From: Musa acuminata AAA Group
Lineage: Eukaryota; Streptophyta; Magnoliopsida; Zingiberales; Musaceae
NCBI RefSeq assembly: GCF_036884655.1
Contig: NC_088345.1
Span: forward strand, 33,605,501-33,669,500
DNA: 64,000 nt
Direction of reading: 5' to 3'
Position numbers and translations under genes: made by a program. The notes under the pieces were generated by a model that did no database searches, had not been told where the DNA came from, and worked only from the letters and a program-made list of their open reading frames with translations. This document shows, piece after piece, positions 10,947 to 39,202 of the stretch (within the stretch, counting starts at the first letter, position 1; each line of letters starts with the position of its first letter).

Positions 10947-10948
10947 TT

Positions 10949-18612: not shown

Positions 18613-18620
18613 TATATAAA
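18613..18620 (+). promoter_or_regulatory. Probable Gypsy-1 LTR TATA box
   Basis: TATATAAA in the context GTTGC-TATATAAA-TTTTTCAGG, matching the minus-strand block of the other gypsy LTRs. Confidence 0.45.
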
Positions 18621-19156
18621 TTTTTCAGGATAGCTTATCGCTCACTAAAATATGTAAATTGGGTTGAGGCAGTGGAAGACTAGAAGATTTTGGGGCAAAT
18701 ATTTTGTACTTGATTGGTTGATGTTGTATAAGTCATTTTTGGGAGTAATGAAATATCAATGACAAATCTAGATTGATGTATCTTGTAAATATTTGAAAAG
18801 TACCTCTTATGTCAGGATTTTGAAAATGTTAAGTCTAAACTGTGTACTAATATAAACATGTAGTACATGTTAGTTTTGTGATTGCATTAATTGTCACGCT
18901 TATGGATTTATGATATAGTTATGGTTTAATTAAGTTGCCTTTGGATTTTAAGAATCATCTAGTGACATGATGTATGATTATAAACTGCACAGGTTTTGTG
19001 AATTGTGGATTGTATAGGTGACTGACTTGAATGTTTTTTTCTTAGTGACCTCAAATGTGTGATTGGATCCTAGATTGTTTGTTGAATTATAATATTATCA
19101 ACTTGAGTTAGGTTCACACCTCCTGAATAAGAATAAAATTCGGGAGGGGCTTGACA

Positions 19157-19207
19157 AGAGTAGTACTAGGATGGGTGACCCCTTGGGAAGTCCTCATGTT
19201 GCACTCC
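19157..19207 (+). rRNA. 5S rRNA 3' fragment, cut by the Gypsy-1 LTR
   Basis: Starts at AGAGTAGTACTAGGATGGGT, which is the internal promoter C-box region, and continues to the mature 3' end GTTGCACTCC. The 5' two thirds are missing because the LTR lies at the break. This copy keeps the 3' end that the longer copies lack. Confidence 0.9.
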
Positions 19208-19520
19208 TCTTTGCGCCCCGAGCGACCAAAACCACTCTCGTCGACCTCCGAGGCGATGGTTTTGGGCCTCGGAATTTGCCGTGACCGCTACGCAGTCAGT
19301 CTCGTGGGGCTTAGAGAGAGGCTTCCGGAATGGGGTCGCAATAGTGATTCCGAGTTCGTTCGAGAAAGTCCCGAGGGTTTCGGCGCGAGCTTGCCGTGTC
19401 CGGTACGCGGCGGGCATCGGAGAGATCTGACAATGGTGATTCCGAGATCGTTCGAGAGGTTTAAGGGCTCCATATGCCGTCCGTGACGTGCACAAAGGCG
19501 AGGGACGACGCGCACAAAAC
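19208..19520 (+). repeat. 5S rDNA intergenic spacer
   Basis: GC-rich spacer starting TTTGCGCCCCGAG, matched at 37301-37613 and, without its first 30 or so bases, at 37716-37992 and 38095-38357. No protein gene is supported; the open frames here come from high GC content. Confidence 0.85.
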
Positions 19521-19622
19521 GAGTACGATCATACCAGCACTAAAGCACCATATCCCATCAGAACTCCGAATTTAAGCGTGCTTGGGCGAGAGTAGTACTA
19601 GGATGGGTGACCCCTTGGGAAG
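19521..19622 (+). rRNA. 5S rRNA copy, truncated at the 3' end (probable pseudogene)
   Basis: Starts GAGTACGATCATACCAGC and continues colinear with plant 5S rRNA through the A-box region and C-box (TAGTACTAGGATGGGTGACC) to GGGAAG. It then runs straight into spacer (ACCTCCGAGGCGATGG). About 19 terminal bases and the terminator are missing. It also carries GAATTTAAGCG in place of the usual GAAGTTAAGCG, a change shared by all three longer copies. Confidence 0.9.
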
Positions 19623-19726
19623 ACCTCCGAGGCGATGGTTTTGGGCCCTGAAATTTACCGTGAACGCTATGCAGTCAATCTCGTGGGGCTCGGAGAGATG
19701 TTTCCGGAATGGGGTCGCAATAGCGA
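19623..19726 (+). repeat. 5S spacer fragment cut by Gypsy-3
   Basis: Starts inside the spacer because of the shared deletion, and ends at GCAATAGCGA where TGTCACGCCC of Gypsy-3 begins. Confidence 0.85.
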
Positions 19727-20160
19727 TGTCACGCCCCTCAAATAATATCGATGATTTAAAAAGATTCATCAAAACACAAACCAATCCAGGATTTATAATC
19801 ATATATCACATCACTCGATAATTCACATTTATGACAACTCAACCCAACTTCACAAACATGAACAACATTTATAAATCCACAAGCTAAATAAATTATACAA
19901 TCAAAACTCCAACTATTTACCACAAGTTCATATCATCATAAACTAGACTTAACATTCCGAAATTCCAAATAAGAGAGATCTTCTAACACTTTTACACATT
20001 ATATCCATTTTGATTCATCGATAACATTTCATTACATACAAAATATGCTTGTACAACAATAACATAATAACCAACAAGACTTGCCCATAATTATGAATAG
20101 CTCTCCACTGCCTCAGCCCAATTCAAAACATCTCAAAGAGTGATAACATGACCTGAAAGA

Positions 20161-20168
20161 TTTATATA
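20161..20168 (-). promoter_or_regulatory. Probable TATA box, Gypsy-3 left LTR
   Basis: Minus-strand TATATAAA in the conserved block. Confidence 0.35.
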
Positions 20169-21971
20169 ACAACGGAGTGAGCTAAAAACAGCTTAGCAAG
20201 TGACAAAACATATTTAGAACAAAAGGAACGGTTTCAAACAAGTAAGATATCATAATGCAAGGGAGAATACAAGATTTCTCAAGGATACCATCTCATTAGA
20301 TACAAAATCATATGTGTCATGTCATTCAAAACATATTTGGTTCATAACAAATGGAGCACAGAGTAATTGGAGCATATCAATAGCGTACGAGATGTTCCGG
20401 AGCATATCAATGGCAAATAGGACATTTCATAACATATCAGGTCATAACAAATGGAACACAGAGTAATTGAAGCATATCAATAGCGTATGAAATGTTCCGG
20501 AGTATATAAATGACATATGAAACATTTCAAAATGTAACAATAACATATGAAACAGATAGAATGTGAAGTGGGATTCCAAACATAATATGGTCAATCCATT
20601 TTTGAATGACCACCAAACATAATCTAGAGCATCGCATGCTCTAAGCACATACCCTTTACCATTTCTGGCAAAGGTCCAAATAATCCCACAAACACCAGAG
20701 TACAAAAGGGTATTCTGAACAATAATTTGAGACAGTAGCAGATGAAGCATTTCGGAGCATATCAATGGCGTATGAAATGTTCCGGAGCATATCAATGACA
20801 TGGAATATTTCGAAGCGTAACAATAATAGATGACACATTTCGGAGCATATCAATGGGGTATGAAATGTTTCAGAGCATATCAATAACAAATGAAACATTT
20901 CGGAACATATCAATAACAAATACCAAACAAAAGCTCAAACGTCGTAGTTGACGTTGCATTCATATCATTCTTATCCATAACAAAGTAGAAGGGTCAGAAT
21001 ATCAGAAGTTGCATAGATTCGAATCGTTACATCTAAATAGGAGATATATCAAATGAAAGGCTAGAACAATTCAAAGTTCCTCATATTCAAAACAACTGTA
21101 GCGGTAAAATTGCGGTAAGGAAAGATCAGGACACTTGCAATAGGAAAGATTAGAAAGCTTGCAATAGGAATGATAGGAACACTTGCATGAGAAAAGATTA
21201 GAAAGCTTGCAATAGAAAGGATCAGAACACTTGCCTTTCAAAGATTTCGATCCAAAGATCCAAAGAAGGTGTCAGCCCAAATCCTTTTACTTTTCCTTCA
21301 CAACTGTAGCTCATGCAGAACATAGAGGCATAGTCACATACTCTCTCTTACACTCATTCCTTCGTTTTCTTTCACAAACGCAGCTGCCACAGCCACCACC
21401 GCTGTCGCTGCCACAATCGCTGCCCCTTCAACTGCACTACTTCCTTCCTCCTCTTCTTTCACAGACACAGCTGCTGCATACGCAGTCGCTGCCATTGTGG
21501 CCGCAATCCCTTCCGCAGCCCCTTTTTCCCCCTTTCCTTTCTTTTCTTTCCCAGCAGCTCTGTTGCAGTCGCAGCCTCAGCCACGGCCGCAGCCTCTTCT
21601 TCCTCCCCTGCTCATCTTCCTCTCCTTCTCTTCCAACTGCAGCTGCCATCGCCGCAGCTGCAGCCCCTTCTCCTCTTCCCCTCTTCTTCCTCTCCTTCCC
21701 TTTCTCTTCTTCTTCCTTTCCTTTTTCTCTTTCCCTGCCACAACTGCAGCTGCCACTACCGCTGCCGTAGCTACTTCTTTCCCTTCTCCTCTTCCTTCTC
21801 CTTCCTTTCTTCTTCTTCTCTCCCCGCTGCAACTGCTGCAGTCGCGGCCGCAGCTATGGCCGCAACCTCTTCTTTCTCCCCTGCTCATCTTCCTCTTCTT
21901 CTTCTCTTCCAGCTGCAGCTGCCATCGCCGCAGCTGCAGCCCCTTCTTCCATGGCATCACACACACCCTCT

Positions 21972-21999
21972 CCTCTGTTTCCTGTGCAGGAAACAGAGG
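21972..21999. repeat. Perfect 13-bp inverted repeat, 2-base loop
   Basis: Arms CCTCTGTTTCCTG and CAGGAAACAGAGG. First of a series in Gypsy-3 LTRs. Confidence 0.9.
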
Positions 22000-22080
22000 T
22001 ATCACAACCTCTTCTCCTGCTTCCTCTTCTTCTTCTCTTCCTCTTCTTCTTCTTCTCCTCTTCGAACGCCCCACACCTCT

Positions 22081-22109
22081 CCTCTGTTTCCACCTACAAG
22101 AAACAGAGG
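22081..22109. repeat. 10-bp inverted repeat of the same series
   Basis: Arms CCTCTGTTTC and GAAACAGAGG, loop of 9. Confidence 0.9.
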
Positions 22110-22244
22110 TGCAGCACACCTCTCGCTCCTCTCCCTCGTCCCTCTCTTTTCCCTCTTCTTCTCCTTCTCTTCTTCTCCTAAGACCCTTTTCCTCCCTAAC
22201 GCCACACACCTCCTCGCTGCAGCGTTGCCGTAGCTATCCTCCTC

Positions 22245-22279
22245 TCTTCTTCTTCTTCTTCTTCTTCTTCTTCTTCTTC
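22245..22279. repeat. CTT microsatellite
   Basis: Uninterrupted TTC repeats in the pyrimidine-rich LTR part. Confidence 0.9.
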
Positions 22280-22311
22280 CCTTCTCCTCCCCAACGCCCC
22301 ACACATCCTCT

Positions 22312-22340
22312 CCTCTGTTTCCACCTGCGGGAAACAGAGG
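22312..22340. repeat. 10-bp inverted repeat of the same series
   Basis: Arms CCTCTGTTTC and GAAACAGAGG. Confidence 0.9.
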
Positions 22341-22661
22341 TGCAGCAGCCCTAGCTGCTGCTGTTGCCTCTCTCTCTCTCCTCTCTATCTTCCCTCTCTT
22401 CTTCTTCTTCTTCTTTTCTTCTCTTCTCCATCTTCCTCCTCTCTTCTTTTCCCTCTTCTTCTTCTTTCTTCTCTCCTCACGCCCCACCGCTCGAGAGTGC
22501 GTGGGAAGCCGTGGGATAAAATCGAAATTTTCGCTTTTCTTTATTTTTTTTTTATTTTGCAACTTAGCAGTTTAGTCCTTGAAATTTTTATATTTACATA
22601 TAGGTCCTCAAATTTACATATAATTTCTTATTAATAATTTTCAAAAGTGAGGGATATTACA

Positions 22662-22676
22662 CTCTTCCCCCCTTAA
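22662..22676 (-). promoter_or_regulatory. Gypsy-3 polypurine tract
   Basis: Minus strand TTTAAGGGGGGAAGAG, beside the left LTR. Confidence 0.7.
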
Positions 22677-22744
22677 ATGAAAATTTAGTCCTCTAAATTG
22701 ATCATAGCTCAATCGATGAAAAAAATGAGGATTATGATATCTTT

Positions 22745-23540
22745 ATTTCCTCCTTCTGCTCTTAAATAGTTTCATCAATATAATACAATTACACAATTAT
22801 CCACGAGTGGCCGAAATATTCTCCTTCTTGATCCTCAATAGATGGTAACCCGATATTCAAACAATCTTTGAAAATACTTGTGCACCCTGTAGTTAATCAA
22901 ACAAGTCGTCACTTTAGAGAATACTCGTTTTTGATGGTCACCTAATTCAATTGTCCACAATCAATACAAAGCCTTAATGTTCCCTCTATCTTTTTAACTA
23001 ACACCAGAGCACCCCATGATGAAATATTAAGCCAAATAAAATCCTTATTTAATAGTCCTTGTAGTTGCTTTTTCTAATTCCATTTACTCAAATGATGTCA
23101 TTCTGTAGAGAGGCTTAGATATTGGGATTGTCCCAAGGACCAAATCAAAAGCAAAGTCACGTTTGGAGGTAATCCAAGTAAGTCATCCTAGGATACATTA
23201 GGCAAGGAGATAAATCGTGTCCAATACTTTCAAAATAAAAGATCGATTGATCAAATGTACAAAAAGTGATCATTTGTTATATACTAATCCATACTGGTAT
23301 GATAGGAAGATAGTCAATCCATACCAAGTATAATATCGAAACTCCAAATCTCTAGGAGAACTAAATCAACAAAAGTTCAAGTTCTCCAATAAAAATCAGA
23401 CAAGAGGACCAGATTCAAGTTCGTTATTAAAGAATCTCCAATGATCGTATTTTATATATATCATATAATGCAGTGGTCTAGGTTGAATGCCCAAGTGATA
23501 AGCAACATGTTACGAATCAAATCGTAGATAGGACCCATGG
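22745..23540 (-). pseudogene. Gypsy-3 protease and N-terminal RT remnant
   Basis: On the minus strand the order is protease scraps with a FDHGS-type active site near 23535, then RDFAFDLVLGTIPISKPLYR near 23100-23160 (start of RT). A broken stretch containing LRLCIDCGQLN follows, the first conserved RT block. The RT active-site region and everything downstream are missing before the purine tract. Multiple stops and frame breaks. Confidence 0.72.
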
Positions 23541-24190
23541 TCAAACAAATATTTGCATTCTTTCATAAACATGCATAATACCTTCGATCACTAATTCAGA
23601 AGTTTTAGAATCATATTCAGTGATAGCATACACTCTGACATGGGCTGATGATTTAAGAGGCAGTGACTCTTTCTTCTTGTTCAAAGGACAGTATTTTATT
23701 TTATGATCCAACTTTATACAAGCAAAATAGACTCTAGTCACCCACCAACACAAACTTGTTTCATAATTTAACTTGCAATTCACACATGATTGAGTCTTTT
23801 GTGGTGACTTCCCTTTTCAAATCCAAATGTCTTGACCCTCTTGTTAACACTTTCTAATTCATTTCTAATCATATTTTTATTGGTAAACTTGTCCTTATCA
23901 TTCTTGTTATTGATCTTCAAAAATTCTTTTCATTGTTCCCATTAATGATCAGCCTCTAGTTCTAATATAAGGTGGCAAAAGAAATCTTTCGATCATTGAA
24001 GCAATTTTGAACATCAAATATCTTCTCTATTCGAATCATCCATTTGTCTGCCACCAATGGATTAGGTGCACCATGCTTCTGCTGCGCCACTCTGATTCAA
24101 CATCTCCGATTGCCCATTTCATCCCACTTAATTAATCAAAACCAGATGAAGTAGAAGGACTAAATGTCCTCGTCATCCTAGATTCCCAAA
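23541..24190 (-). pseudogene. Gypsy-3 gag remnant with zinc knuckle
   Basis: Best-preserved piece is 23541-23783, with RVYFACIKLDHKIKYCPLNK, a knuckle in which the second Cys pair is damaged (CIK for CGK), then HVRVYAITEYDSK. Upstream (24190 to 23800) scattered matches to the 409-aa gag appear, including a region equivalent to MMRMEKIF near 24010-24045. It is not functional. Confidence 0.75.
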
Positions 24191-24290
24191 GTGCATCAAA
24201 GAAAATTTCCACCGATCACTATAGTTCACTAGACCTCAATATATTTTACACGTTAACATATCAAATATTTCAGTGATCCTCAAACTATGC

Positions 24291-24304
24291 TCTGATACCA
24301 CCAC
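24291..24304 (-). promoter_or_regulatory. Gypsy-3 primer-binding site
   Basis: Plus strand CTCTGATACCACCAC; on the minus strand TGGTATCAGAG, initiator tRNA-Met type. Confidence 0.8.
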
Positions 24305-24800
24305 TGTCACGCCCGTCAAAAAAATATCCATGATATTAAAATTTTCAACACAAACCAATCCAGGATCCAAACACACATTTGAGGACACTGAAAAACATTC
24401 TATCAATTTCACATCTATAAAACCTGTGCAGTTTATAATCATATATCATATCACTCGATAATTCCCATTTATGGCAACCCAAGCCAACTTTACAAACATG
24501 AACAACATTTATAAATCCACAAGCTAAATAAATTATACAATCAGAACTCCAATTATTCACCACAAGTTCATATCATCATAAACTAGACTTAACATTCTGA
24601 AAGTCCAAATAAGAGAGATCTTCTAATACTTTTACACAGTATATCCATTTTGATTCATCGACAACATTTCATTACATACAAAATATGCTTATACAACAAT
24701 AACATAATAACCAACAAGACTTGCCCATAATTTTGAATAACTCGTCACTGCCTCAGCCCAATTCAAAACATCTCAAAGAGTGACAAGCTGACCTGAAAGA

Positions 24801-24808
24801 TTTATATA
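24801..24808 (-). promoter_or_regulatory. Probable TATA box, Gypsy-3 right LTR
   Basis: Same TATATAAA block; as the 5' LTR in element sense it would be the driving promoter. Confidence 0.35.
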
Positions 24809-26017
24809 ACAACGGAGTGAACTAAAAACAGCTCAGCAAGTGACAAAGCATATTCAGAATAGAAGGAAAGATTTCAAACGAGTAAGATATCATAATGCAA
24901 GGCAGAATATAAGAATTCTCAAGGATACCATCTCATTAGATACAAAATCGTATGTGTCATGTCATTCAAAACATATTTGGTTCATAACAAATGGAGCATA
25001 TCAATAGCATACGAGATGTTCCGGAGCATATCAATGGCAAATAGGACATTTCAGAACATATCAATTTATAGCAAATGAAGCACAGAGTAATTGGAGCATA
25101 CTAATAGCGTATGAAAAGTTCTGGAACATATCAATGACAAATGGAACATTAGGAGCATAACAATAGCAAATGAAACATTTCGGAGCCTAACAAAGGCATA
25201 GGAAATGTTTCAGAGCATATCAATAACAAATGAAACATTTCGGAGCTTGTCAATGGTGTATGAAATGTTCCAGAGCATATCAACGGCATATGGAACATTT
25301 CGGAGCATATCAATAACAAATACCAAACAGAAGCTCAAACGTCGTCTTTGACGTTGCATTCATATCATTCTTATCCAAAGCATGTATAGAAACACATAAC
25401 CAAAGCTCTGGAAATTATATCAAACATACAAAAGGTGCAGTGGGACCGCAGACAGAATGTGAATCATCCATTTCTGAATGACCACCAGACAGAAGTCTCC
25501 CACGTCTGGGAGCTCCATCCACCCACGTCTAGGTGAAGTTAGAGGGGGGCCGGCAGAGCATCTCAGGCTCTATGCACATACCCTTTACCATTTCTGGCAA
25601 AGGTCCAGATAATCCCACAAACACCAGAGTACAAAAAGACAGTATGAACAACGAATAGCATATATCAGAAGCACACGTGGAACAACAAAACATACATGTG
25701 CCTTTATGAGTCAATACGATGCAAGCAATAATCTTTCACAATTGTATTCAGATTTGAAAGGAATTAAAAGCAATGGCACATATGGAATCCAAGCAATCAC
25801 ATACAACTCAATTTCAATAAGAAGGTTAGAGGAATTCGATATCTAAAGGAATGAAACTAGAATAGGCACACATCGAAAGCAAATGCGGAACAATGGGTTA
25901 TACATGTTCCTATATAAGTCAATACGATATAACATAAACGTTACACAACAGTTTTCAAGAATGCAAATAATTTTAAGGACAAGAGCATACAAGAATTCAA
26001 AGTAGTAATATAAAGCT

Positions 26018-26022
26018 CAATT
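26018..26022. repeat. Target-site duplication CAATT, left copy
   Basis: Matches 34905-34909 on the other side of SIRE-1. Confidence 0.92.
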
Positions 26023-26149
26023 TGTTAGGATCAAGAGCACTAAGAGGGGGGGGGGTGAATTAGTGCAGCGGAAATCTTATAATAATTTAAAAACCAAAAG
26101 CTGCGTTCGTTCAAAAACTATTATGATGCAAAAGCAAATTCTCAGTTTG

Positions 26150-26505
26150 TATCTAAGTGCAGTTTGCGTCTAAGCGCAGATTGCGTTTAAGCGCAGTTTT
26201 GCGTCTAAGCGCAGTTTTGCGTCTAAGCGCAGTTTTGCGTCTAAACTCAGATTTACGTCTAAATGCAGATTTACGTCTAAACGCAGATTTACGTCTAAAC
26301 GCAGTTTTACGTCTAAACGCAGTTTTACGTCTAAACGTAGTTTTACGTCTAAACGCAGATTTACATCTAAACGCAGTTTTACGTCTAAACGCAGTTTTAC
26401 GTCTAAACGCAGATTTACGTCTAAACGCAGTTTTACGTCTAGACGCAGATTTACGTCTAAACGCAGTTTTACGTCTAAACGCAGTTTTACGTCTAAATGT
26501 TGAAA
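26150..26505 (-). repeat. 18-base minisatellite, SIRE-1 left LTR
   Basis: About 18-19 units of ACGTCTAAACGCAGTTTT type, alternating TTTT and ATTT variants. One unit more than the right LTR. Confidence 0.93.
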
Positions 26506-27079
26506 CTCGTTCGTAAAATCGTAGAGGACAGATTGCAGTTATTAATAGGATTAAAATGTAAGCGTAAACTGCAAGGAAGCTCGTTCGTAAAAGCGCGGAA
26601 AATAGTTCTGCAGAATCAAACGTAAACGTAAACTGTAATGTATGAAAATACGAGTTTACGTCTGAATGCAGATTTGGAAGAACAGCACTTAGAACTTGTT
26701 CGTGAAAGCGCAGAGAGCAGTAGTGATGAGGGAGGTTTGCAGTAATGATAAAGTGCTCGAAAATAAACGCAAACCAGAGATTTAGAGTGGTTCGGTCAGC
26801 CTTGACCTACTCCACTTTTGGCTTCCTCCACCGATGAGGTTGCCGACGTCAACTAGGTGCCTTCCTTCAATGGGCGAAGGCCAAACTTCCCTCTTACAAT
26901 TTCTCTCCTTTTGACAGGCTTAGGAGACAACCTTTACAGATGTTTTCTCTCCTCTCTTTACAACTCAAACTTGAAGAACAGAAGGAGGAGGAAAACTAGC
27001 AGTTTTGAGCTCTAAGAACCACTGAAGAGATCAAGATTTCGGGTCAGTTCTTGCTCAATTCAGTGCTGAATGGGTGGGG

Positions 27080-27087
27080 TATTTATA
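27080..27087 (-). promoter_or_regulatory. LTR TATA box, SIRE-1 left
   Basis: Minus-strand TATAAATA within GGCCTATAAATACCCC. Confidence 0.7.
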
Positions 27088-27159
27088 GGCCCCAACCCAA
27101 TTCAAAATTCGAGCTCAAAACAATCAAATCGATCAAATCCCAGAATTCTGGGATCAGGC

Positions 27160-27735
27160 GGTTGCACCTCTCGACTGGAGAGGTGGCACCGCCTGGCAGA
27201 GCTCGAAGACTGAGCTCTGCCGATTGCTTCTCTCTGCCAGAGCTCGAAGACTGAGCTCGATGGTTGCATCACCTGGCAGAGCTCGAAGACTGAGCTTGGT
27301 GATTGCATCACCTGGCAGAGCTCGAAACAGAGCTCGGTGGTTGCATCACCTGGCAGAGCTCCAAGCTGAGCTCAGGCTGATCCACCTCTCTGCCAGAGCT
27401 CGAAGACTGAGCTTGGTGAATGCATCACCTGGCAGAGCTCGAGACTGAGCTCAGGCTGATGCACCTCTCTGCCAAAGCTCGAAGACTGAGCTTGGTGGTT
27501 GCATCGCCTGGCAGAGCTCGGAACTTGAGCTCTGGCGGTGCAACCTCTTGGCTGGGGCGGTTGCACCTCCCAGCCGTGCAGCCCTGGCGGTTGCACCTCC
27601 TGGCTGGGGCGGTTGCACCTCCCAGCCCCACAGCCCAGGCGGTTGCACCTCCTGGCTGGGGCGGTTGCACCTCTCAACCCCACAGCCCAGGCGGTTGCAC
27701 CTCCTGGCTGGGGCGGTTGCACCTCCTGGTGCAAT
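27160..27735 (-). repeat. U3 repeat cluster, SIRE-1 left LTR
   Basis: Alternating modules: GCGGTTGCACCTCC-type and GAGCTCGAAGACTGAGCTC-type, more than a dozen each, directly upstream of the TATA box in element sense. The GAGCTC arms are self-complementary. Confidence 0.85.
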
Positions 27736-28583
27736 CAGGGTCCGAATGGTTCACTCCATTCGACCCACTTTGATTCTTTTCAGGGGCCCAATTGCCCCAA
27801 GATTAAGCTAATGGGATCACCTCCTATTTTCATGCTTAATCATCGTGCTAACTACGATTATCTCTAAGACAACTTCTGCAGCTTGCTCCGATGCGTCAAT
27901 CGCTTCTTCCGGCGAGTTTCCGGCCAACTTCCGTCGATCAACCGATAACCCTCGGTGATCCTTCTGCGGACATCCGGTATACTCCTGGACTTTGCGACGA
28001 TCCACTTGGCGAGTTCCGACGAGCTTCGCTTGGCAAGCTTCTGGACTTCTCGGATCTGTTCTCTCTGAACCTCCGACGACCGTCCGAACTTCCGTCGAAC
28101 TCTCGAACTCCCAACATGATCATGATCTTGACTCCGGCGCAACTCCTGCTGCTTGTCTTACTCTCATCGTAGTTAATCCTGCACAACAAATCAAAACTTC
28201 GATCGAGACAAATAATCCTAAGCAATTAACCAAGTTGTCCGACATGTCATTGGTCCCTCGACGCTTCGTCCGATTCTTCGGCGCATCGTCCTCTCGTGCA
28301 GCCTATTGCCCAATCGGCCAGTTGACTCCGCAACTCCGATATCCTTGGCACAATACCCGCTCTTCTTGGCCCGATGCCCGAGTCCACGGCCCGAAGCCTT
28401 CTGTCGATACGTCGACCGATCCACCGGCCCGACGTCCAATCTTCTGACATGATCCTTCGGCACAACATGATTTTCCTGCTTTAATTGTCTCATCCTGATC
28501 GAAGCATCCTGCGTCACTCAAAACGCAGATTAAATCATAAACATATATCAAGTAGTTTCATCATCAAAATACGAGATTCAACA

Positions 28584-28596
28584 ATCTCCCCCTTTT
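28584..28596 (-). promoter_or_regulatory. SIRE-1 LTR-proximal polypurine tract
   Basis: Minus strand AAAAAGGGGGAGAT directly at the LTR end TGTTGAATCTC. Confidence 0.85.
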
Positions 28597-29639
28597 TGAT
28601 GATGACAACTACTTGATGACGGAGTTAAACTTAACTCCCGGAGTTTAAACAAACTCCCCCTATCAATATGCCATATTGATAGAACCTCTTAGATTCAAAA
28701 ATCTAAGCAACATGTCATCATAAACGGAGTTAACCTTAACTCCCGGAGTTTAAACAAACTCCCCCTATCAATATGCCATATTGATAGAACCTTGAATTCT
28801 CACTGAATTCAAGTCATTGCAATATTCATCATGAATACTTGCAACACGTCAACATGAACTTATGCATAAACTTATGCATCACATGTCATGTCATCAACAT
28901 ACTTCTCCCCCTTTGTCATCAACAAAAAGGAGAAGTATCACAATCAAGTGTTTGTGTGTGATATTGGTTCAACTCATTGCATGAAAAAGATAGTATCAAG
29001 TTTTATCATCATGCAAGTTTGCTAATATCAACATGAAAAATTACGATGTAAGCTTTTGATATCATAACGCAAACATTTCAAGTGTTTATCAATTGTAGCA
29101 TTTCATCACATGGTAAGATATCAATGCGTAAAATTACGATACAAGCTCTTGATATCTTAACGCATGATGCAAACATGGCATAATGCAAGTTTGGCAATCA
29201 TAGCATCAATTCATATATTTCTCACCCTTTGTTATCAACAAAACGGAGAACGATATAAGCAAATTTTAAGCATAAGTGCTTGTTGTTATGTGAAATAAAT
29301 CCTTGCAAGTAAAAACACTTTCATCCATATTCATCAAATCCATTTCTCAAAAAATATTTTTCACATGATGTGTGTATGAGAGATGTATTTGCTAGTTAAT
29401 TACATATGTCAAAAATCAATGATATGAACTAAACTTGATATGACATATGCTTGTTAAGTTTGGAAGAGAGTGAACTTGATATGTTAGATTCAAGAGAATC
29501 CGAAAATGAAATTTGACTCTTTCTTCCATTCGGACAAGGTTTTGCTATAGATATTCAATTACAATCATAAAGATAAGACATACTCATCATCATGATAGTA
29601 TGATAGCAGGTTTACCATATACAAGCTAGCAAAAAATTT

Positions 29640-30100
29640 CTACATTTTAAGGCCCGCAAGCTAGCAATTTTGAGATGTTCAAGAAAGCAACTCTTGCTTC
29701 TTGATATATGCAAATTTGTCAAGTTTTGCTAGATGTGCAAGTTAGCATTTTTGCCTCTTGAGATAGGCAAGATAGCACATTTGCTTCTTTTGAGATAGCA
29801 GCTTTTCGCTTCTCTTTAGACTACGAGCTAGCAATTTTTACGATGTACAAGTTTCACATTATACAAGCTAGCAAAAATTTCGAAAGCACATGCAAGATAA
29901 ATTTCTTGTGTAAGCTCATGATTCTTGCTTCCTATTGCAATGTGCAAATTGCAAGTTTTGATTCTTGAGATATTCAAGATAGTGATGTTCAAGAAGACAA
30001 TTTTTCTTCTTGAAATAAGCAAGTTAGCAATCTTTGCTTCTTAAAATAGGTAAGCTAGCAAATCAAGTTTTTGCATCTTCTTGACTTGTACAAGCTAGCT
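29640..30100 (-). repeat. Array of short hairpin motifs, SIRE-1
   Basis: Repeats of a roughly 30-40 base motif with TTGCTTCTTGAGATxTGCAAG. Clear inverted repeats include TCTTGA-GATAT-TCAAGA (29963-29979) and TCTTG-7-CAAGA (29756-29772). The homologous array of SIRE-2 is at 54824-55400. Confidence 0.8.
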
Positions 30101-31312
30101 ATCTCCCCCTTTGTCATTGTCAACAAGGGAAAAACCCTTTACATCAATTTCTAAATCATGACAAAGGTAAGTAATCAATCTTATTTGTGCATCATTATAG
30201 TTTCAATGCACAAATTTATTAACATTACATTTCAAAAAATTTATGCATGATACCGAAAAATCAATCATCATCATGAGCATATCAAACATGATATTCAAGC
30301 ATTCATGATACATCATTTTGGCAGCATGATCATAGATATTCAAACGATGGTATCTAGAATTCATTACATCCTATTATGCATGATCATTAACTCCTCATTT
30401 GTATTTCATGCATTATTTCATTTCATCTCATAAGGAATATCAAGAAGAGTTATTGGATGATGAGATAAATATTTTATGAATACACAGAATATCATAAGTG
30501 TTTCATGTATTCATATTATCACATGAAGCATATTATCATTTTTAAGATTCATAACATGAATAACGTTATTACTATTTCATCAAAATTAGTTTCGAGATTC
30601 ACATAATATCATGAAATCATTAATCTCGATAAAATGGGAAAAACATTTTCTTTTTAAGTGATTCTTTTAACACATCATAAAAAAGAAAAACTCATTCATA
30701 ATTCAAGTGATTTACAAGATATCATAAATGAATTTATCACTTGTATTTCACCAAAATCGAGAACTCTAGAGTTAGAAAAATGATTGAAGCATTTAATCTG
30801 ATTGAAGAATGATTCATATTTAAAGTGTAGCATTTGTCAAATCTGAAATCATCAAGTATAACTTTAATATTTTCATTGCAACATTAAGCAAGGTTTCATT
30901 GAAGATAATTTTGAATGATTCTTATAAATGCCTAAAACTTCTTTAATTTTAATTTATGATTGACTTTATAATAGTATGCTCAAATCTTTATTCTTATGTC
31001 AAAACCATACATTATATTTAATAAACAAAGACAATGAAAAATATCAAGCCTAAAAGCCATGTATCATCATTGAAAAGTAATATGAAAATCATCAAAATAT
31101 ACATTCTTGCTTCTCAAGCACATAAATAAGATTAATCTCACTAGGTGTAAAATCATTAGATTTCTATCTTGCATTATCATAAGACATGCAATTTTCATTA
31201 TCATTTTCAAGATTACAAGCATGATCATATTTTTGCATTTTCATTGTTAAATTATTAAAAATATAATTTTCAACAAAATTTAAAGAAAAAGAAAAGTGCA
31301 TCATGAAAAGCA

Positions 31313-32311
31313 TCATGTAATTTCGAAGTAAATTAGGGGGATTTCGATTACCTCATCATTGTAGGCTGTTAAGGCGTAGTTTGCCGCCTTGCTTTTGTTG
31401 ACTTTCTCTTCTTCGGAGGAGCTCGATTCATCCCAATTTTTGTTCTTCTTCTTGCGTTTAAAGCAAGTGGTTCCATTCTTTTTGCTTTTTAATTTTCGTT
31501 TCATTTTAAGTTCACCATCACTTGAGCTTATGCTCGAGTGGTCTTCAAATGTTCTATGTCCCAAATCCTTCCTGTTCTTTGGAAGGTTGGTTTGTTCATC
31601 ATTGTCCTCATCACTTGAGTCATCGCTCAAGTGGCATTCATTTGTCCAGAGTTCCAAATCCTTCCTGTTCTTTGGAAGGTGGTTCTCAAGTTCTTCACGT
31701 GCATTGCACGTCATTTCATATGTGATCAATGAACCAATTAGTTCTTCAAGTGGAAAATGGTTCAAGTTTTTCGATTCTTGAATAGCAGTTACTTTTGAAT
31801 CCCAAGTTTTAGAAAGTGAGCGCAAAACTTTGTTAACGAGTTCAAAATCCGAAAAGCTTTTACCAAGTGATTTTAAACCATTGACGACATCCGTAAAACG
31901 GGTGTACATGTCAACAACGGTTTCGCTTGGTTTCATATGAAAAAGCTCGAAATCAAGCAGTAGAATATTAACTTTCGAGTCTTTGACTCTACTAGTTCCC
32001 TCGTGCGTGATTTCAAGAGTGCGCCAAATATCGAAAGCCGTTTCACACGTAGAAATCCGATTGAACTCATTTTTGTCCAATGCGCAAAATAAGGCATTCA
32101 TAGCCTTTGCGTTTAAAGAAAAATTCTTCTTCTCCAAAACCGACCATTCGTTCATCGGTTTGGAGGGAAGTTGAAAACCGTTTTCAATGATATTCCATAA
32201 ATCCAGATTTAGAGAAATTAAGAAAACTCTCATTCGAGTTTTCCAATAAGTGTAGTCCAATCCGTTAAAGAACGGTGGACGAAGGACCGAACAGCCCTCT
32301 TGAAAAGTCAT
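31313..32311 (-). CDS. gag: Sirevirus-like copia Gag, truncated form (332 aa)
   Basis: Gag of copia type, expected to build particles. The start ATG lies about 36 bases from the primer site. Residues 16-24 read NGLDYTYWK, the hallmark of the DUF4219 N-terminal segment. Residues about 50-200 match the UBN2/copia gag domain (FDIWRTLEITHEGTSRVKDS; YTRFTDVVNGLKSLGK; LRSLSKTWDSKVTAI). The C-terminal third is charged and contains LPKNRKDL twice, then Lys-rich and Ser/Glu-rich blocks. It ends at YFEIT with no CCHC knuckle and no pol downstream. Gag frames of SIRE-2 (336 aa) and SIRE-D (313 aa) end the same way, so the truncation is a family trait. Confidence 0.88.
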   Translation of the reverse strand: MTFQEGCSVLRPPFFNGLDYTYWKTRMRVFLISLNLDLWNIIENGFQLPSKPMNEWSVLEKKNFSLNAKAMNALFCALDKNEFNRISTCETAFDIWRTLEITHEGTSRVKDSKVNILLLDFELFHMKPSETVVDMYTRFTDVVNGLKSLGKSFSDFELVNKVLRSLSKTWDSKVTAIQESKNLNHFPLEELIGSLITYEMTCNAREELENHLPKNRKDLELWTNECHLSDDSSDEDNDEQTNLPKNRKDLGHRTFEDHSSISSSDGELKMKRKLKSKKNGTTCFKRKKKNKNWDESSSSEEEKVNKSKAANYALTAYNDEVIEIPLIYFEIT

Positions 32312-32346
32312 TTCTCTCGGGTGTAAATCCGAAATGAGAAAAACCC

Positions 32347-32361
32347 CGCTCTGATACCAAT
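32347..32361 (-). promoter_or_regulatory. SIRE-1 primer-binding site
   Basis: Plus strand GCTCTGATACCAATT; minus strand ATTGGTATCAGAGC, initiator tRNA-Met type, directly at the LTR. Confidence 0.9.
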
Positions 32362-32488
32362 TGTTAGGATCAAGAGCACTAAGAGGGGGGGGGGTGAATT
32401 AGTGCAGCGGAAATCTTATAATAATTTAAAAACCAAAAGCTGCGTTCGTTCAAAAACTATTATGATGCAAAAGCAAATTCTCAGTTTG

Positions 32489-32818
32489 TATCTAAGTGCA
32501 GTTTGCGTCTAAGCGCAGATTGCGTTTAAGCGCAGTTTTGCGTCTAAGCGCAGTTTTGCGTCTAAACTCAGATTTACGTCTAAATGCAGATTTACGTCTA
32601 AACGCAGATTTACGTCTAAACGCAGTTTTACGTCTAAACGCAGTTTTACGTCTAAACGCAGTTTTACATCTAAATGCAGATTTACGTCTAAACGCAGTTT
32701 TACGTCTAAACGCAGTTTTACGTCTAAACGCAGATTTACGTCTAAACGCAGTTTTACGTCTAGACGCAGATTTACGTCTAAACGCAGTTTTACGTCTAAA
32801 CGCAGTTTTACGTCTAAA
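32489..32818 (-). repeat. 18-base minisatellite, SIRE-1 right LTR
   Basis: Same array as 26150-26505 with one unit fewer, plus three substitutions seen by eye. Confidence 0.93.
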
Positions 32819-33400
32819 TGTTGAAACTCGTTCGTAAAATCGTAGAGGACAGATTGCAGTTATTAATAGGATTAAAATGTAAGCGTAAACTGCAAGGAAG
32901 CTCGTTCGTAAAAGCGCGGAAAACAGTTCTGCAGAATCAAACGTAAACGTAAACTGTAATGTATGAAAATACGAGTTTACGTCTGAATGCAGATTTGGAA
33001 GAACAGCACTTAGAACTTGTTCGTGAAAGCGCAGAGAGCAGTAGTGATGAGGGAGGTTTGCAGTAATGATAAAGTGCTCGAAAATAAACGCAAACCAGAG
33101 ATTTAGAGTGGTTCGGTCAGCCTTGACCTACTCCACTTTTGGCTTCCTCCACCGATGAGGTTGCCGACGTCAACTAGGTGCCTTCCTTCAATGGGCGAAG
33201 GCCAAACTTCCCTCTTACAATTTCTCTCCTTTTGACAGGCTTAGGAGACAACCTTTACAGATGTTTTCTCTCCTCTCTTTACAACTCAAACTTGAAGAAC
33301 AGAAGGAGGAGGAAAACTAGCAGTTTTGAGCTCTAAGAACCACTGAAGAGATCAAGATTTCGGGTCAGTTCTTGCTCAATTCAGTGCTGAATGGGTGGGG

Positions 33401-33408
33401 TATTTATA
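33401..33408 (-). promoter_or_regulatory. LTR TATA box, SIRE-1 right (driving promoter)
   Basis: Minus-strand TATAAATA, in the LTR upstream of gag. Confidence 0.75.
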
Positions 33409-34904
33409 GGCCCCAACCCAATTCAAAATTCGAGCTCAAAACAATCAAATCGATCAAATCCCAGAATTCTGGGATCAGGCGGTTGCACCTCTCGACTGGA
33501 GAGGTGGCACCGCCTGGCAGAGCTCGAAGACTGAGCTCTGCCGATTGCTTCTCTCTGCCAGAGCTCGAAGACTGAGCTCGATGGTTGCATCACCTGGCAG
33601 AGCTCGAAGACTGAGCTTGGTGATTGCATCACCTGGCAGAGCTCGAAACAGAGCTCGGTGGTTGCATCACCTGGCAGAGCTCCAAGCTGAGCTCAGGCTG
33701 ATCCACCTCTCTGCCAGAGCTCGAAGACTGAGCTTGGTGAATGCATCACCTGGCAGAGCTCGAGACTGAGCTCAGGCTGATGCACCTCTCTGCCAAAGCT
33801 CGAAGACTGAGCTTGGTGGTTGCATCGCCTGGCAGAGCTCGGAACTTGAGCTCTGGCGGTGCAACCTCTTGGCTGGGGCGGTTGCACCTCCCAGCCGTGC
33901 AGCCCTGGCGGTTGCACCTCCTGGCTGGGGCGGTTGCACCTCCCAGCCCCACAGCCCAGGCGGTTGCACCTCCTGGCTGGGGCGGTTGCACCTCTCAACC
34001 CCACAGCCCAGGCGGTTGCACCTCCTGGCTGGGGCGGTTGCACCTCCTGGTGCAATCAGGGTCCGAATGGTTCACTCCATTCGACCCACTTTGATTCTTT
34101 TCAGGGGCCCAATTGCCCCAAGATTAAGCTAATGGGATCACCTCCCATTTTCATGCTTAATCATCGTGCTAACTACGATTATCTCTAAGACAACTTCTGC
34201 AGCTTGCTCCGATGCGTCAATCGCTTCTTCCGGCGAGTTTCCGGCCAACTTCCGTCGATCAACCGATAACCCTCGGTGATCCTTCTGCGGACATCCGGCA
34301 TACTCCTGGACTTTGCGACGATCCACTTGGCGAGTTCCGACGAGCTTCGCTTGGCAAGCTTCTGGACTTCTCGGATCTGTTCTCTCTGAACCTCCGACGA
34401 CTGTCCGAACTTCCGTCGAACTCTCGAACTCCCAACGTGATCATGATCTTGACTCCGGCGCAACTCCTGCTGCTTGTCTTACTCTCATCGTAGTTAATCC
34501 TGCACAACAAATCAAAACTTCGATCGAGACAAATAATCCTAAGCAATTAACCAAGTTGTCCGACATGTCATTGGTCCCTCGACGCTTCGTCCGATTCTTC
34601 GGCGCATCGTCCTCTCGTGCAGCCTATTGCCCAATCGGCCAGTTGACTCCGCAACTCCGATATCCTTGGCACAATACCCGCTCTTCTTGGCCCGATGCCC
34701 GAGTCCACGGCCCGAAGCCTTCTGTCGATACGTCGACCGATCCACCGGCCCGACGTCCAATCTTCTGACATGATCCTTCGGCACAACATGATTTTCCTGC
34801 TTTAATTGTCTCATCCTGATCGAAGCATCCTGCGTCACTCAAAACGCAGATTAAATCATAAACATATATCAAGTAGTTTCATCATCAAAATACGAGATTC
34901 AACA

Positions 34905-34909
34905 CAATT
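34905..34909. repeat. Target-site duplication CAATT, right copy
   Basis: Matches 26018-26022. Confidence 0.92.
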
Positions 34910-36531
34910 GAATAAGAAAGCTAAAGAATGTCAATTTCCAAAGAAATGAAATCAGAATATGCGAAATCGACCAAAGCTCGATTTCTGGCAGAATTCAAGA
35001 GGCACATTGAACAAATGATTCAAACTATCAATCATGCTCCAAGTTACTCAGAAATATATCATTGGAAAGATATTTCAATTTATTTTCAGATAAAACAAGT
35101 CTCGTACGAATCGAAGCTTCCAACAAAAAGTTACAATAGATTTAGTAACCCAAGATCAAAGAACAAATCTCAATTTTACAGAATTCACAGGGTCGGTTTC
35201 AACAGAAAATTGGGCAGGCATTTGGACTCTAAATCATTCAATCCATATGCCAAAGAAAGATCTACGAGTCTAGTTTCCAATGAAATAAGCTTTGAACAAA
35301 TCGGAGTTTCCAAAGTCAACTTATAGGCAAATCACTAACAAAAGGTCAGAAATTACGATCCCTGTTTTGTAGAATCTGTAGGCTCATTTGATACAGAAGT
35401 TTGGGCAGGCAAACTTACTCCGAATTCTTAAAATAAGCTATCAAAAGAAAGGTTTATGAGTCTATATTCTGATCAAATAAGTTTTGTCCAAATCAGAGGT
35501 CAATACATGATGTTATAGCCATAACAAAGTAGAAGGGTCAGAATATCAGAAGTTGCATAGATTCGAATCGTTACGTCTAAACAGGAGATATATCAAATGA
35601 AAGGCTAGAACAATTCAAAGTTCCTCATATTCAAAACAAATGTAGCGGTAAAATTGTGGTAAGGAAAGATCAGGACACTTGCAATAGGAAAGATTAGAAA
35701 GCTTGCCATAGGAAGGATAGGAACACTTGCAAGAGAAAAGATTAGAAAGCTTGCAATAGAAAGGATCAGAACACTTGCCTTTCAAAGATTTCGATCCGAA
35801 GATCCGAAGAAGGTGTCAGCCCAAATCCTTCTACTTTTCCTTCACAACTGTAGCTCATGCAGAACATAGAGGCATAGTCACCGACTCTCTCTTACTCTCG
35901 TTCCTTCGTTTTCTTTCCCAAACGCAGCTGCCACAGCCACCACCGCTGTCGCTGCCACAATCGATGCCCCTACCACTGCACTACTTCCTTCCTCCTCTTC
36001 TTTCGCAGACACAGCTGCTGCATACGCAGTCGCTGCCGCTGTGGCCGCAATCCCTTCCGCAGCCCCATTTTTCCCCCTTTCCTTTCTTTTCTTTCCCAGC
36101 TACACTGCTGCAGTCGCAGCCTCAGCCACGGCCGCAGCCTCTTCTTCCTCCCCTGCTCATCTTCCTCTCCTTCTTCTCTTCCAACTGCAGCTGCCATCGC
36201 CGTAGCCGCAGCCCCTTCTCCTCTTCCTCTCTTCTTCCTCTCCTTCCCTTTCTCTTCTTCTTCCTTTCCTTTTTCTCTTTCCCTGCCACAGCTGCAGCTG
36301 CCACTGCCGCTGCCGCAGCTACTTCTTTCCCTTCTCCTCTTCCTTCTCCTCTTCCTTCTCCTTCCTTTCTTCATCTTCTCTCCCCACTGCAACTACTGCA
36401 GTCGCGGCCGCAGCCACGGCCGCAACCTCTTCTTCCTCCCCTGCTCATCTTCCTCTTCTTCTTCTCTTCCAACTGCAGCTGCCATCGCCGCAGCTGCAGC
36501 CCCTTCTTCCCCGGCGTCACACACACCCACT

Positions 36532-36559
36532 CCTCTGTTTCCTCTGCAGGAAACAGAGG
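36532..36559. repeat. 12-bp inverted repeat, Gypsy-3 hairpin series
   Basis: Arms CCTCTGTTTCCT and AGGAAACAGAGG, 4-base loop. Confidence 0.9.
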
Positions 36560-36640
36560 TATCACAACCTCTTCTCCTGCTTCCTCTTCTTCTTCTCTTC
36601 CTCTTCTTCTTCTTCTCCTCTTCGAACGCCCCACACCTCT

Positions 36641-36669
36641 CCTCTGTTTCCACCTGCAGGAAACAGAGG
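36641..36669. repeat. 11-bp inverted repeat, Gypsy-3 hairpin series
   Basis: Arms CCTCTGTTTCC and GGAAACAGAGG, 7-base loop. Confidence 0.9.
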
Positions 36670-36818
36670 TGCTGCAGCCCTAGCTGCTGCCACCTCTCGC
36701 TCCTCTCCCTCGTCCCTCTCTTTTCCCTCTTCTTCTCCTTCTCTTCTTCTCCTCTTCCCTTTTCCTCCCCAACGCCACACACCTCCTCGCTGCAGCCTTG
36801 CCGCAACTATCCTCCTCT

Positions 36819-36860
36819 CTTCTTCTTCTTCTTCTTCTTCTTCTTCTTCTTCTTCTTCTT
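36819..36860. repeat. CTT microsatellite
   Basis: Uninterrupted TTC repeats, longer than the left LTR equivalent. Confidence 0.9.
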
Positions 36861-36893
36861 CCCTTCTCCTCCCCAACGCCCCACACATCCTCT

Positions 36894-36922
36894 CCTCTGT
36901 TTCCACCTGCGGGAAATAGAGG
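36894..36922. repeat. Inverted repeat with one mismatch, same series
   Basis: Arms CCTCTGTTTCC and GGAAATAGAGG. Confidence 0.85.
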
Positions 36923-37072
36923 TGCAGCAACCCTAGCTGCTGCTGCTGCCTCTCTCTCTCCTCTCCATCTTCCCTCTCTTCTTCTTCTTCTTCTTTTCTT
37001 CTCTTCTCCCTCTTCCTCCTCTCTTCTTTTCCCTCTTCATCTTCTTTCTTCTCTCCTCACGCCCCACCGCTC

Positions 37073-37100
37073 CTCTCTGTTTCTCGAAAGAAACAGAGAG
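37073..37100. repeat. 12-bp inverted repeat, CTCTCTGTTTCT type
   Basis: Arms CTCTCTGTTTCT and AGAAACAGAGAG with loop CGAA. The left LTR has lost it. Confidence 0.9.
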
Positions 37101-37264
37101 TGGGTGGGAGGCAGTGGGATAAAACCGATATTTTCGATTTTGTTTATTTTCTTTTCATTTTGCAACTTAGCAGTTTAGTCCTTGAAATTTTTATATTTAC
37201 ATATAGGTCCTCAAATTTACATATAATTTCTTATTAATAATTTTCAAAAGTGAGGGATGTTACA

Positions 37265-37300
37265 TGGGTGAGCCCTTGGGAATTCCTTCTGTTGCACTCC
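37265..37300 (+). rRNA. 5S rRNA 3' fragment beside the Gypsy-3 LTR
   Basis: Starts TGGGTGAGCCC in the C-box region and ends GTTGCACTCC. A T5 run follows at 37301-37305, which fits a Pol III terminator. The 5' part is absent at the LTR junction. Confidence 0.85.
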
Positions 37301-37613
37301 TTTTTGCGCCCCGAGTGACCAAAACCTCTCCCGTCGACCTCCGAGGTGATGGTTTTGGGCTTCGGAATTTGCCTGGACCGCTATGCAGTCCGTCTCATGG
37401 GGCTCGGAGAGAGGTTTCCGGAATGGGGTCGCAATAGCGATTCCGAGTTCGTTCGAGAAAGTCCCGATGGTTTCGGCGCGAGCTTGCCGTGTCCGGTACG
37501 CGCTGGGCATCGGAGAGATCCGACAATGGCGATTCCGAGATCATTGGAGAGGTTTAGGGGCTCCATACACTGTCCGTGATGTGCACAAAGGCGAGGGACA
37601 ACCCATACAAAAG
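37301..37613 (+). repeat. 5S rDNA intergenic spacer
   Basis: Same spacer as 19208-19520, starting TTTTTGCGCCCCGAG; several substitutions. Confidence 0.85.
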
Positions 37614-37715
37614 GAGTGGGATCATACCAGCACTAAAGCACCAGATCCCATCAGAACTCCGAATTTAAGCGTGCTTGGGCGAGAGTAGTACTAGGATGGG
37701 TGATCCCTTGGGAAG
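37614..37715 (+). rRNA. 5S rRNA copy, truncated at the 3' end (probable pseudogene)
   Basis: Starts GAGTGGGATCATACCAGC and is colinear with 5S to GGGAAG, then jumps to spacer (ACCTCTGAGGCGATGG). It has the same missing 3' end and the same GAATTTAAGCG change as 19521-19622. C-box region reads TGGGTGATCC. Confidence 0.9.
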
Positions 37716-37992
37716 ACCTCTGAGGCGATGGTTTTGAGCCTCGGAATTTGCCGTGACCGCTACACAGTCAGTCTCGTGGGGCTCGGAGAGAGGTTTCCGG
37801 AATGGGGTCGCAATAACGATTCCGAGTTCGTTCGAGAAAGTCCCGATGGTTTCGGCGCGAGCTTGCCGTGTCCGGTACGCGGTGGGCATTGGAGAGATCT
37901 GACAATGGTGATTCCGAGATCGTTTGAGAGGTATAGGGGCTCCATACGTCGTCCGCGACGTGCAGAAAGGCGAGGGACGATGCACACAAAAC
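37716..37992 (+). repeat. 5S spacer, deletion form
   Basis: Spacer lacking its first part because the deletion joins it to the 5S body. Unit period from 37614 to 37993 is 379 bases. Confidence 0.85.
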
Positions 37993-38094
37993 GAGTGCGA
38001 TCATACCAGCACTAAAGCACCGGATCCCATCAGAACTCCGAATTTAAGCGTGCTTGGGCGAGAGTAGTACTAGGATGGGTGACCCCCTGGGAAG
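37993..38094 (+). rRNA. 5S rRNA copy, truncated at the 3' end (probable pseudogene)
   Basis: GAGTGCGATCATACCAGC to CCTGGGAAG, the closest to the plant consensus of the three, including CACCGGATCCC and GGTGACCCCC. It shares the same 3' deletion and GAATTTAAGCG. Confidence 0.9.
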
Positions 38095-38357
38095 ACCTTC
38101 GAGGCGATTGTTTTGGGCCTCAGAATTTGCCATGACCGCTACGCAGTCAGTCTCGTGAGGCTCGGAGAGAGATTTCTGGAATGGGGTCGCAATAGCGATT
38201 CCGAGTTCGTTCGAGAAAGTCCCGATGGTTTCGGCGGGCGCTTGCCATGTCCGGTACGCGGTGGGCATCCGAGAGATCCGACAATGGCAATTCCGAGATC
38301 GTTCGAGAGGTTTAGGGGCTCCATACGCACAAAGGCGAGTGACGACGCACACAAAAC
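38095..38357 (+). repeat. 5S spacer, deletion form, slightly shorter
   Basis: About 14 bases shorter than 37716-37992, near the CTCCATACG block. Confidence 0.85.
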
Positions 38358-38371
38358 GAGTGCGATCATAC
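38358..38371 (+). pseudogene. 5S rRNA 5' stub (14 bases) cut by SIRE-D
   Basis: GAGTGCGATCATAC, the first bases of a 5S gene, then TGTTAGGATC of SIRE-D. The last five bases (CATAC) are the expected left target-duplication copy; the right copy is not in the window. Confidence 0.85.
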
Positions 38372-39194
38372 TGTTAGGATCAAGAGCACTAAGAGGGGGG
38401 GGTGAATTAGTGCAGTGGAAAACCTTCTGAGATTAAAATCAAAAACTGTGTTCGTTCGATAGAAGTGATTTTGGTAAGAAACCCGATTCGTAAATCACTT
38501 CAACTTTTGACTAGGAGAGATGCAGCAAAGATATGAATGTAGTTTGCAGTTATGATGGAAATCAGAATATAAGTGCAAACTGAAATACGACGTTCGTACG
38601 ATAAAAGCGATTTCGGTATAAAAGCTGATTCGTAAACCACTTTAACTTGAGATAAGGTGAGATGCAGTTAAAGCAAAGATATAAAGGCAATTTGCAGTTA
38701 TGATGGAAATCAGAACGTAATCGTAAACTGAAATACGACGTTCGTACGATAAAACTGATTTGCGTCTTAAACCTCGATTCGGAAAGTGCAAAGCTTGAAA
38801 CCCGATCGTATATGCGTAGAAAGCAGTAAGCTTTAGAGGAGGTTTGCAGTAAAGATAATATGCTCAAAGTAAATGCAAATCGAGATTTAGAGTGGTTCAG
38901 TCAATCTTGACCTACTCCACTTTTGGCTTCCTCCACCGACGAGGTCACCGACGTCAACTAGAGGCCTTCCTTCAATAGGCGAAGGCCAAACAACCTTTTA
39001 CAGTTTCACTCCTTTTGACAAGCTTAGAAGACAACCCTTACAGAATTTTCTCTCCTCTCTTTACAACTCAGAACTTGGAAGAATAGAGGGAGAAGAACTT
39101 TTGGCCTTTACAACAATTTTGAGCTCTAAGAATCACAGAAAAATATCAAGATTTCGGTGTAAGTTGAATTCCTTTCAGTGCTGAATGGGTGGGG

Positions 39195-39202
39195 TATTTA
39201 TA
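39195..39202 (-). promoter_or_regulatory. LTR TATA box, SIRE-D left
   Basis: Minus-strand TATAAATA. Confidence 0.65.

Follow-up and report, generated by a model that had tools for sequence, protein, structure and literature searches.

Are the 5S ribosomal DNA (rDNA) repeats of plants a place to which retrotransposons are drawn, or one where insertions remain once an array has died? The question is raised by a 64,000-nucleotide stretch of Musa acuminata DNA, called here the window (C19:33605501-33669500 in an assembly of 1.53 Gb; C19 is the contig of the window, and C1, C8 and C30 are other contigs of the same assembly). The window consists of nested long terminal repeat (LTR) retrotransposon DNA in which two short islands of 5S-derived sequence are embedded. 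A sequence-only reading of the window had remarked on four element ends abutting 5S rDNA, and had offered two explanations: a relic array swamped by elements, or a chromatin state that attracts chromovirus and Sirevirus integration. We conclude that the locus is likely an outlying, dead remnant of a plant 5S rDNA array, one that escaped homogenisation and was broken by ordinary LTR-retrotransposon insertion. The islands and the elements that touch them are the following.

5S relic island A, 19157-19726, plus strand: A0, a gene 3' part with the full gene end and spacer; A1, a gene with a 53-bp deletion and a partial spacer (Rfam, 71.9 bits; unit alignments).
5S relic island B, 37265-38371, plus strand: B0, a gene 3' part and spacer; B1 and B2, genes with the 53-bp deletion and their spacers; B3, the first 14 gene bases (Rfam, 70.6 and 84.6 bits; alignments).
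Gypsy-1 internal region, left piece, 2137-2673, plus strand: collinear with the Gypsy-3 internal region; boundary at the end of SIRE-B.
Gypsy-1 internal region and 3' LTR (15955-19156), 13711-19156, plus strand: terminus adjoins 5S gene position +69 (LTR termini, Integrase_H2C2, SH3_Tf2-1).
Gypsy-3 alpha, 19727-20977, minus strand: outer LTR piece; terminus adjoins 5S spacer at 19726.
Gypsy-3 beta, 20972-37264, minus strand: rest of the left LTR, internal region and right LTR (with SIRE-C inside); terminus adjoins 5S gene position +84; primer-binding-site motif at 24289-24300.
SIRE-D, 38372-48165, minus strand: terminus adjoins 5S gene position +14; second LTR, from 46538 on, interrupted by SIRE-F; copia gag at 45549-46598.

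All four island ends (4/4) proved to be exact LTR termini set against 5S sequence. The junctions read ...GGGGCTTGACA/AGAGTAG at 19156/19157, TAGCGA/TGTCACGCCCC at 19726/19727, ...ATGTTACA/TGGGTGAG at 37264/37265 and GATCATAC/TGTTAGGATC at 38371/38372. The sequence-only reading was thus correct in each coordinate, and its placement of the ends inside the gene, in the spacer and 14 bases into a gene agrees with the gene positions of the adjoining bases: +69 for Gypsy-1, +84 for Gypsy-3 beta and +10 to +14 for SIRE-D. Its claim of two superfamilies also holds, with Ty3/Gypsy-type integrase domains in Gypsy-1 (Integrase_H2C2 and SH3_Tf2-1 above cut-off, rve below cut-off) and a copia gag in SIRE-D. 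A structure search with the integrase piece returned chance-level matches only. Gypsy-1, Gypsy-3 and SIRE-D are the only window elements in contact with 5S; Gypsy-3 has both ends in the window, and Gypsy-1 and SIRE-D one each, the left end of Gypsy-1 and the right end of SIRE-D not being found there. The number of ends is by itself no evidence of preference, because two islands necessarily have four ends.

The islands have the properties of a decayed array. Rfam family RF00001 matched three times in the window, at 19522-19640 (71.9 bits), 37620-37726 (70.6 bits) and 37993-38112 (84.6 bits), all above the gathering score of 38, and 5S-derived DNA detected by BLAST in the window was restricted to 19157-19727 and 37264-38371. 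A tandem gene-spacer arrangement is preserved, with unit lengths of 378 and 365 bp alongside partial units. All three relic genes with a 5' end (A1, B1 and B2) share a 53-bp deletion that has removed the gene end and the downstream T-rich stretch; the gene end is kept in A0 and B0, which are both cut on the 5' side and lack the gene start. The GCACTC gene end of A0 and B0 complements the GAGTGC gene start of B2, and the deleted units have no such end, so that none of the three relic genes with a start has the intact end able to pair with it that a functional gene would carry. The units are 88.6-93.2% identical to each other (differing by 7-11%), and their changes comprise 37 C-to-T plus G-to-A, 7 T-to-C plus A-to-G and 19 transversions; such an excess of C-to-T and G-to-A would be expected from the decay of methylated DNA. 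Rfam scores of the relic genes (71-85 bits) compare with 112-117 bits for the best 47 of 51,408 first-look genome candidates. The 20 kb flanking the window on each side contained no 5S match. Together with the clean nested insertions, marked by 5-bp duplications, that surround the islands, these truncated and decayed genes bear out the relic array swamped by elements. A Cassandra origin of the 5S pieces (a terminal-repeat retrotransposon in miniature) was considered and rejected, as the islands consist of genes and spacers in tandem, flanked by LTR termini of other families.

The relic units differ in type from those of a large array on the same contig, at a distance of 3.6 Mb, whose units measure 567-587 bp. 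This main array (C19:37220010-37356201) holds about 240 genes, most of them spaced 543-589 bp apart; a few units are short outliers, and nothing large interrupts the series. A 30.9-kb Sirevirus concatemer (C19:37356386-37387291, five LTR starts) then breaks the array, which resumes as 605-bp units. Relic genes carry AATTTAAG in place of the AAGTTAAG of three aligned main-array units, and several insertions and deletions separate their spacers. As an exact 29-mer genome-wide, the T form has 30 matches and the G form 3,536; two of the 30 sit in the main array, so that the T form represents a minority variant and does not of itself mark a unit as dead. In the main-array spacer (C19:37354973-37355539), two copies of the gene 3' part also enclose an antisense fragment of copia reverse transcriptase, about 110-120 bp long (RVT_2, 42 amino acids, E = 9.7e-5; the score of 22.5 bits falls short of the curated 31.6). 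This fragment is found in the three aligned main-array units and is absent from A0, B0, B1, B2 and the surviving part of A1; the relic units would therefore stem from a unit type without it. Its presence in main-array spacers suggests that element DNA has spread through the rDNA by concerted evolution.

Gypsy-3 had been taken for one element with two 5S ends. Its flanks are unmatched (AGCGA and TGGGT), without a target-site duplication, and its left LTR is about 1.25 kb shorter than the right; the pieces on the two sides of the joint (20972-20977) overlap by 3 bp. The LTR pair differs at 63/856 positions in the outer part (after exclusion of a misaligned 150-column window that held 31 mismatches) and at 70/1687 in the inner part (Fisher p = 0.0009). 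By comparison, the two SIRE-D LTR pieces are homogeneous (56/1173 vs 24/454, p = 0.70). A simple single insertion is rejected on these flanks and this mosaic. Because there is no duplication and the LTR is a mosaic, Gypsy-3 is probably two insertions of the Gypsy-3 family fused by a deletion. A single insertion whose right flank was rearranged later, giving three insertions at the relic and not four, would fit the one internal region, the two LTRs and the presence of both termini; it is the doubtful alternative, given that the flanks differ and that LTR divergence shifts close to the joint. From the junctions and LTR alignments, there were probably three to four independent insertions at the relic. 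In the history that we propose, Gypsy-1, two Gypsy-3-family copies and SIRE-D would have inserted separately into the array, an illegitimate deletion between the two Gypsy-3 copies would have removed the intervening array, and Sireviruses would have nested on top at a later stage. In active arrays, unequal exchange would dilute or remove insertions; in a dead array they would stay.

Several observations weigh against ordinary insertion as the whole explanation. The raw relic rate is 4 junctions in 1,677 bp, compared with 6 insertions in the 62.3 kb of retrotransposon DNA of the window. The outcome of a two-interval test varied with the background rate: p = 0.012 for that of the whole window, 0.056 for that of first-level elements and 0.146 for 0.40 per kb, a hand-derived, growth-based rate. 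Three of the four window junctions lie inside the gene (p = 0.05-0.07), and a return of 5S to the right of SIRE-D, which had been predicted, was absent within 20 kb right of the window. Finally, eight LTR-terminus/5S junctions came to light independently of any motif search (four in the window, two at the concatemer and two at an element of the C1 array), and three of them fall in one 13-bp box, CTAGGATGGGTGA: window position 37265 (Gypsy-3 beta), C19:37356386 (Sirevirus) and C1:26598862 (Gypsy, one base differing). An insertion preference for the gene was rejected, the p value for three of four sites being insufficient.

That 5S repeats in general draw chromovirus and Sirevirus integration through their heterochromatin is very improbable. 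Its appeal lies in two superfamilies and three to four insertions meeting in one relic, in a weak Chromo match in Gypsy-1 (E = 0.0017, 18.7 bits against a cut-off of 25.1), and in the occurrence of a Sirevirus within the main array and of Gypsy material within the C1 array. However, short intervals are not special to 5S, because Gypsy-1 itself holds two insertions 537 bp apart, and when insertion was simulated as uniform, with element lengths that were in part guesses, target DNA was as scarce as here, or scarcer, in 210 of the 1773 windows that had at least two bounded islands. Other 5S arrays of the same genome, 184,883 bp in total, contained one or two LTR-related interruptions, compared with 6 in 62.3 kb (p = 0.0014 or 0.0044), although this sample was chosen around intact genes and is biased against interruptions, and homogenisation may purge inserts; with the relic pooled in, the comparison was not significant (p = 0.086). 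The sample comprised C19:37220001-37400000 (148,148 bp of 5S in 180 kb, with one Sirevirus interruption, one 681-bp segment and three 27-bp gaps), C19:41951001-41961000 (10,000 bp of 5S, zero interruptions) and, from other contigs, eight stretches of 3.5 kb surrounding T-form genes (26,735 bp of 5S). The one Gypsy-LTR boundary in these stretches belongs to a Gypsy-3-family LTR cut 308 bp inside, not at its terminus. The main array alone runs for 136 kb without any large interruption. Among the first 100 listed of the 3,536 exact matches in the genome, the C1 array showed 16 irregular gaps above 2.5 kb in 269.6 kb (0.059 per kb, against 0.096 per kb in the window), followed by 75 kb that is nearly regular; the one gap of the 16 that was opened (26598801-26604800) held 5,767 bp of non-5S DNA bounded at each end by Gypsy LTRs. 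Other 5S arrays do contain such insertions, as the sequence-only reading had proposed to check, at a lower rate than the retrotransposon DNA of the window. Its chromatin state attracting integration finds no support in a sample where 5S in general is interrupted less than neighbouring retrotransposon DNA, the outcome that this reading had itself named as refuting the idea, with the provisos on intact genes and purging just given. Purging by homogenisation could hide an attraction to 5S. We attribute the high junction density at the relic to age, to the lack of purging and to the way islands are defined, not to a general attraction to 5S DNA.

A narrower possibility is that both superfamilies prefer one place in the 5S repeats, the CTAGGATGGGTGA box, which we take to be the part of the 5S internal promoter known as the C-box and which occurs as a gene copy and a spacer duplicate. 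RNA polymerase III (Pol III) factors or their chromatin would perhaps recruit the integration complex. Had the motif been fixed beforehand, the chance of three of eight would be 0.002-0.008; it was picked after the first cases were seen, and the other five unprompted junctions lie elsewhere. A targeted search added four Sirevirus starts in or just past the box. Near the spacer copy, three Sirevirus starts lie within 12 bp, namely the concatemer, C8:38482908 and C19:42097786. The latter two start at one and the same base of the unit and may represent a single old insertion that was duplicated along with the array (16/482 and 6/96 differences), and the spacer copy sits at a joint from an older rearrangement. 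Near the gene copy there are two Sirevirus starts, C30:29559180 at the box edge and C19:40767451, which is 13 bases after the anchor and past the box. Sirevirus starts after two control anchors in the spacer numbered 0 and 0, and Gypsy starts at the gene 5' anchor 0. These are raw counts and not per anchor copy, and the two control anchors are absent from some unit types; against two same-unit controls, the chance of all three or two events at one preset site is 0.04 or 0.11. Measured as Pol III-directed integration, the overall insertion density in 5S arrays is lower than background, and the box counts come with incomplete controls. The counts hint at a short segment of the 5S gene that might receive insertions more frequently than expected by chance. 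Repeated integration of Sirevirus and Gypsy elements at the C-box stretch and its spacer duplicate, as a Pol III-linked choice of target by two superfamilies, remains an unlikely account. If it were true, LTR retrotransposons of plants would possess a landing site linked to Pol III, which junction counts per anchor could test.

Breakage of a dead array by ordinary insertion thus remains our preferred explanation, and the break-up here is mostly ordinary genome decay. The locus would show how a 5S array dies: copies that are no longer homogenised keep their insertions, and recombination between the inserted elements deletes the remainder.

The other elements of the window are nested in those described above.

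Gypsy-2, 2674-13705, minus strand: lies inside Gypsy-1 with duplication CATTC and comprises three LTRs and two internal parts.
SIRE-C, 26023-34904, minus strand: nested in the Gypsy-3 LTR, duplication CAATT, LTRs with 9 differences in 2543, copia gag.
SIRE-E, 39545-41805, minus strand: solo LTR nested in SIRE-D, duplication GTTGC.
SIRE-F, 48166-64000, minus strand: inserted into the second SIRE-D LTR and reaching the window end or beyond.
SIRE-G, 50451-58091, plus strand: nested in SIRE-F, duplication TACTT, LTRs with 46 differences in 2315.

Retrotran_gag_2 was detected in SIRE-C, SIRE-D and SIRE-G, and 5-bp duplications flank SIRE-C, SIRE-E and SIRE-G. The name Sirevirus is taken over from the sequence-only reading and is used here for elements with a copia-type gag and such LTR termini. 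The nearest named gag proteins to those of the window elements are from Musa textilis (63-76% identity). Gypsy-2 has the order LTR-internal-LTR-internal-LTR, with a single CATTC duplication and LTRs 97-98% identical, an arrangement that we interpret as the product of unequal LTR recombination. Copia internal DNA goes on from 58097 to 64000, with a primer-site-like motif at 63549-63560 and no Sirevirus LTR end after it.

Beyond the window, LTRs 2 and 3 of the main-array concatemer are identical over 2,189 bp; its flanks have no common 5-bp duplication, and unit positions 196-259 are repeated on both sides. The 681-bp non-5S segment (C19:37398744-37399424) starts at the CTAGGATGGGTGA box and is flanked by a 13-bp near-repeat of it. 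Several 5S unit types, of about 427, 469, 567-587, 605 and 665 bp, coexist on several contigs. At C1:27300980-27319758, ten T-form 5S genes are spaced alternately by 1,876 and about 2,342 bp, which suggests a higher-order repeat carrying a 5S copy.

LTR retrotransposons ending at Pol III genes recall Ty3, which has Pol III-directed integration, and Tj1, an LTR retrotransposon that reportedly integrates upstream of Pol III genes; unlike Tj1, the elements here end inside the gene or spacer, and targeting is only a candidate. RIRE7 offers a parallel as a gypsy-type element that is said to insert preferentially into a tandem repeat, in rice, but the repeat is not 5S rDNA. Among the matches listed from the open-licence full-text literature, no plant LTR retrotransposon directed to 5S genes was named, and passages on coffee, Hieracium and fingerroot contributed nothing on such targeting. 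In Aegilops speltoides, according to the passage concerned, three Ty3-gypsy clones flank the 5S and 45S regions and are not intercalated.

Interruption of 5S arrays by elements is already published for maize, banana, Ensete and wheat. In the wheat passages, 5S arrays contain Jeli and Angela insertions usable as markers (PMC3843696); these are polymerase chain reaction markers in tetraploid wheats, and no relic is described there. The maize Mo17 5S array, as described in the relevant passages, has transposable element insertions, mostly Copia, that are more frequent in its older, diverged end, the other end being clean and homogeneous (PMC10335936). The C1 array similarly has an interrupted end and a clean end, whereas the relic here lies 3.6 Mb from the main array and involves both Gypsy and copia ends. 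The passages concerned report an Ensete glaucum 5S array interrupted by an LTR retroelement (PMC9055855) and banana 5S arrays interrupted by Nanica long interspersed nuclear element and CRM sequences (PMC8423783). Zingiberales 5S arrays are broken by elements in those reports as they are here; those passages contain neither base-level junctions nor a copia reverse transcriptase fragment within the unit.

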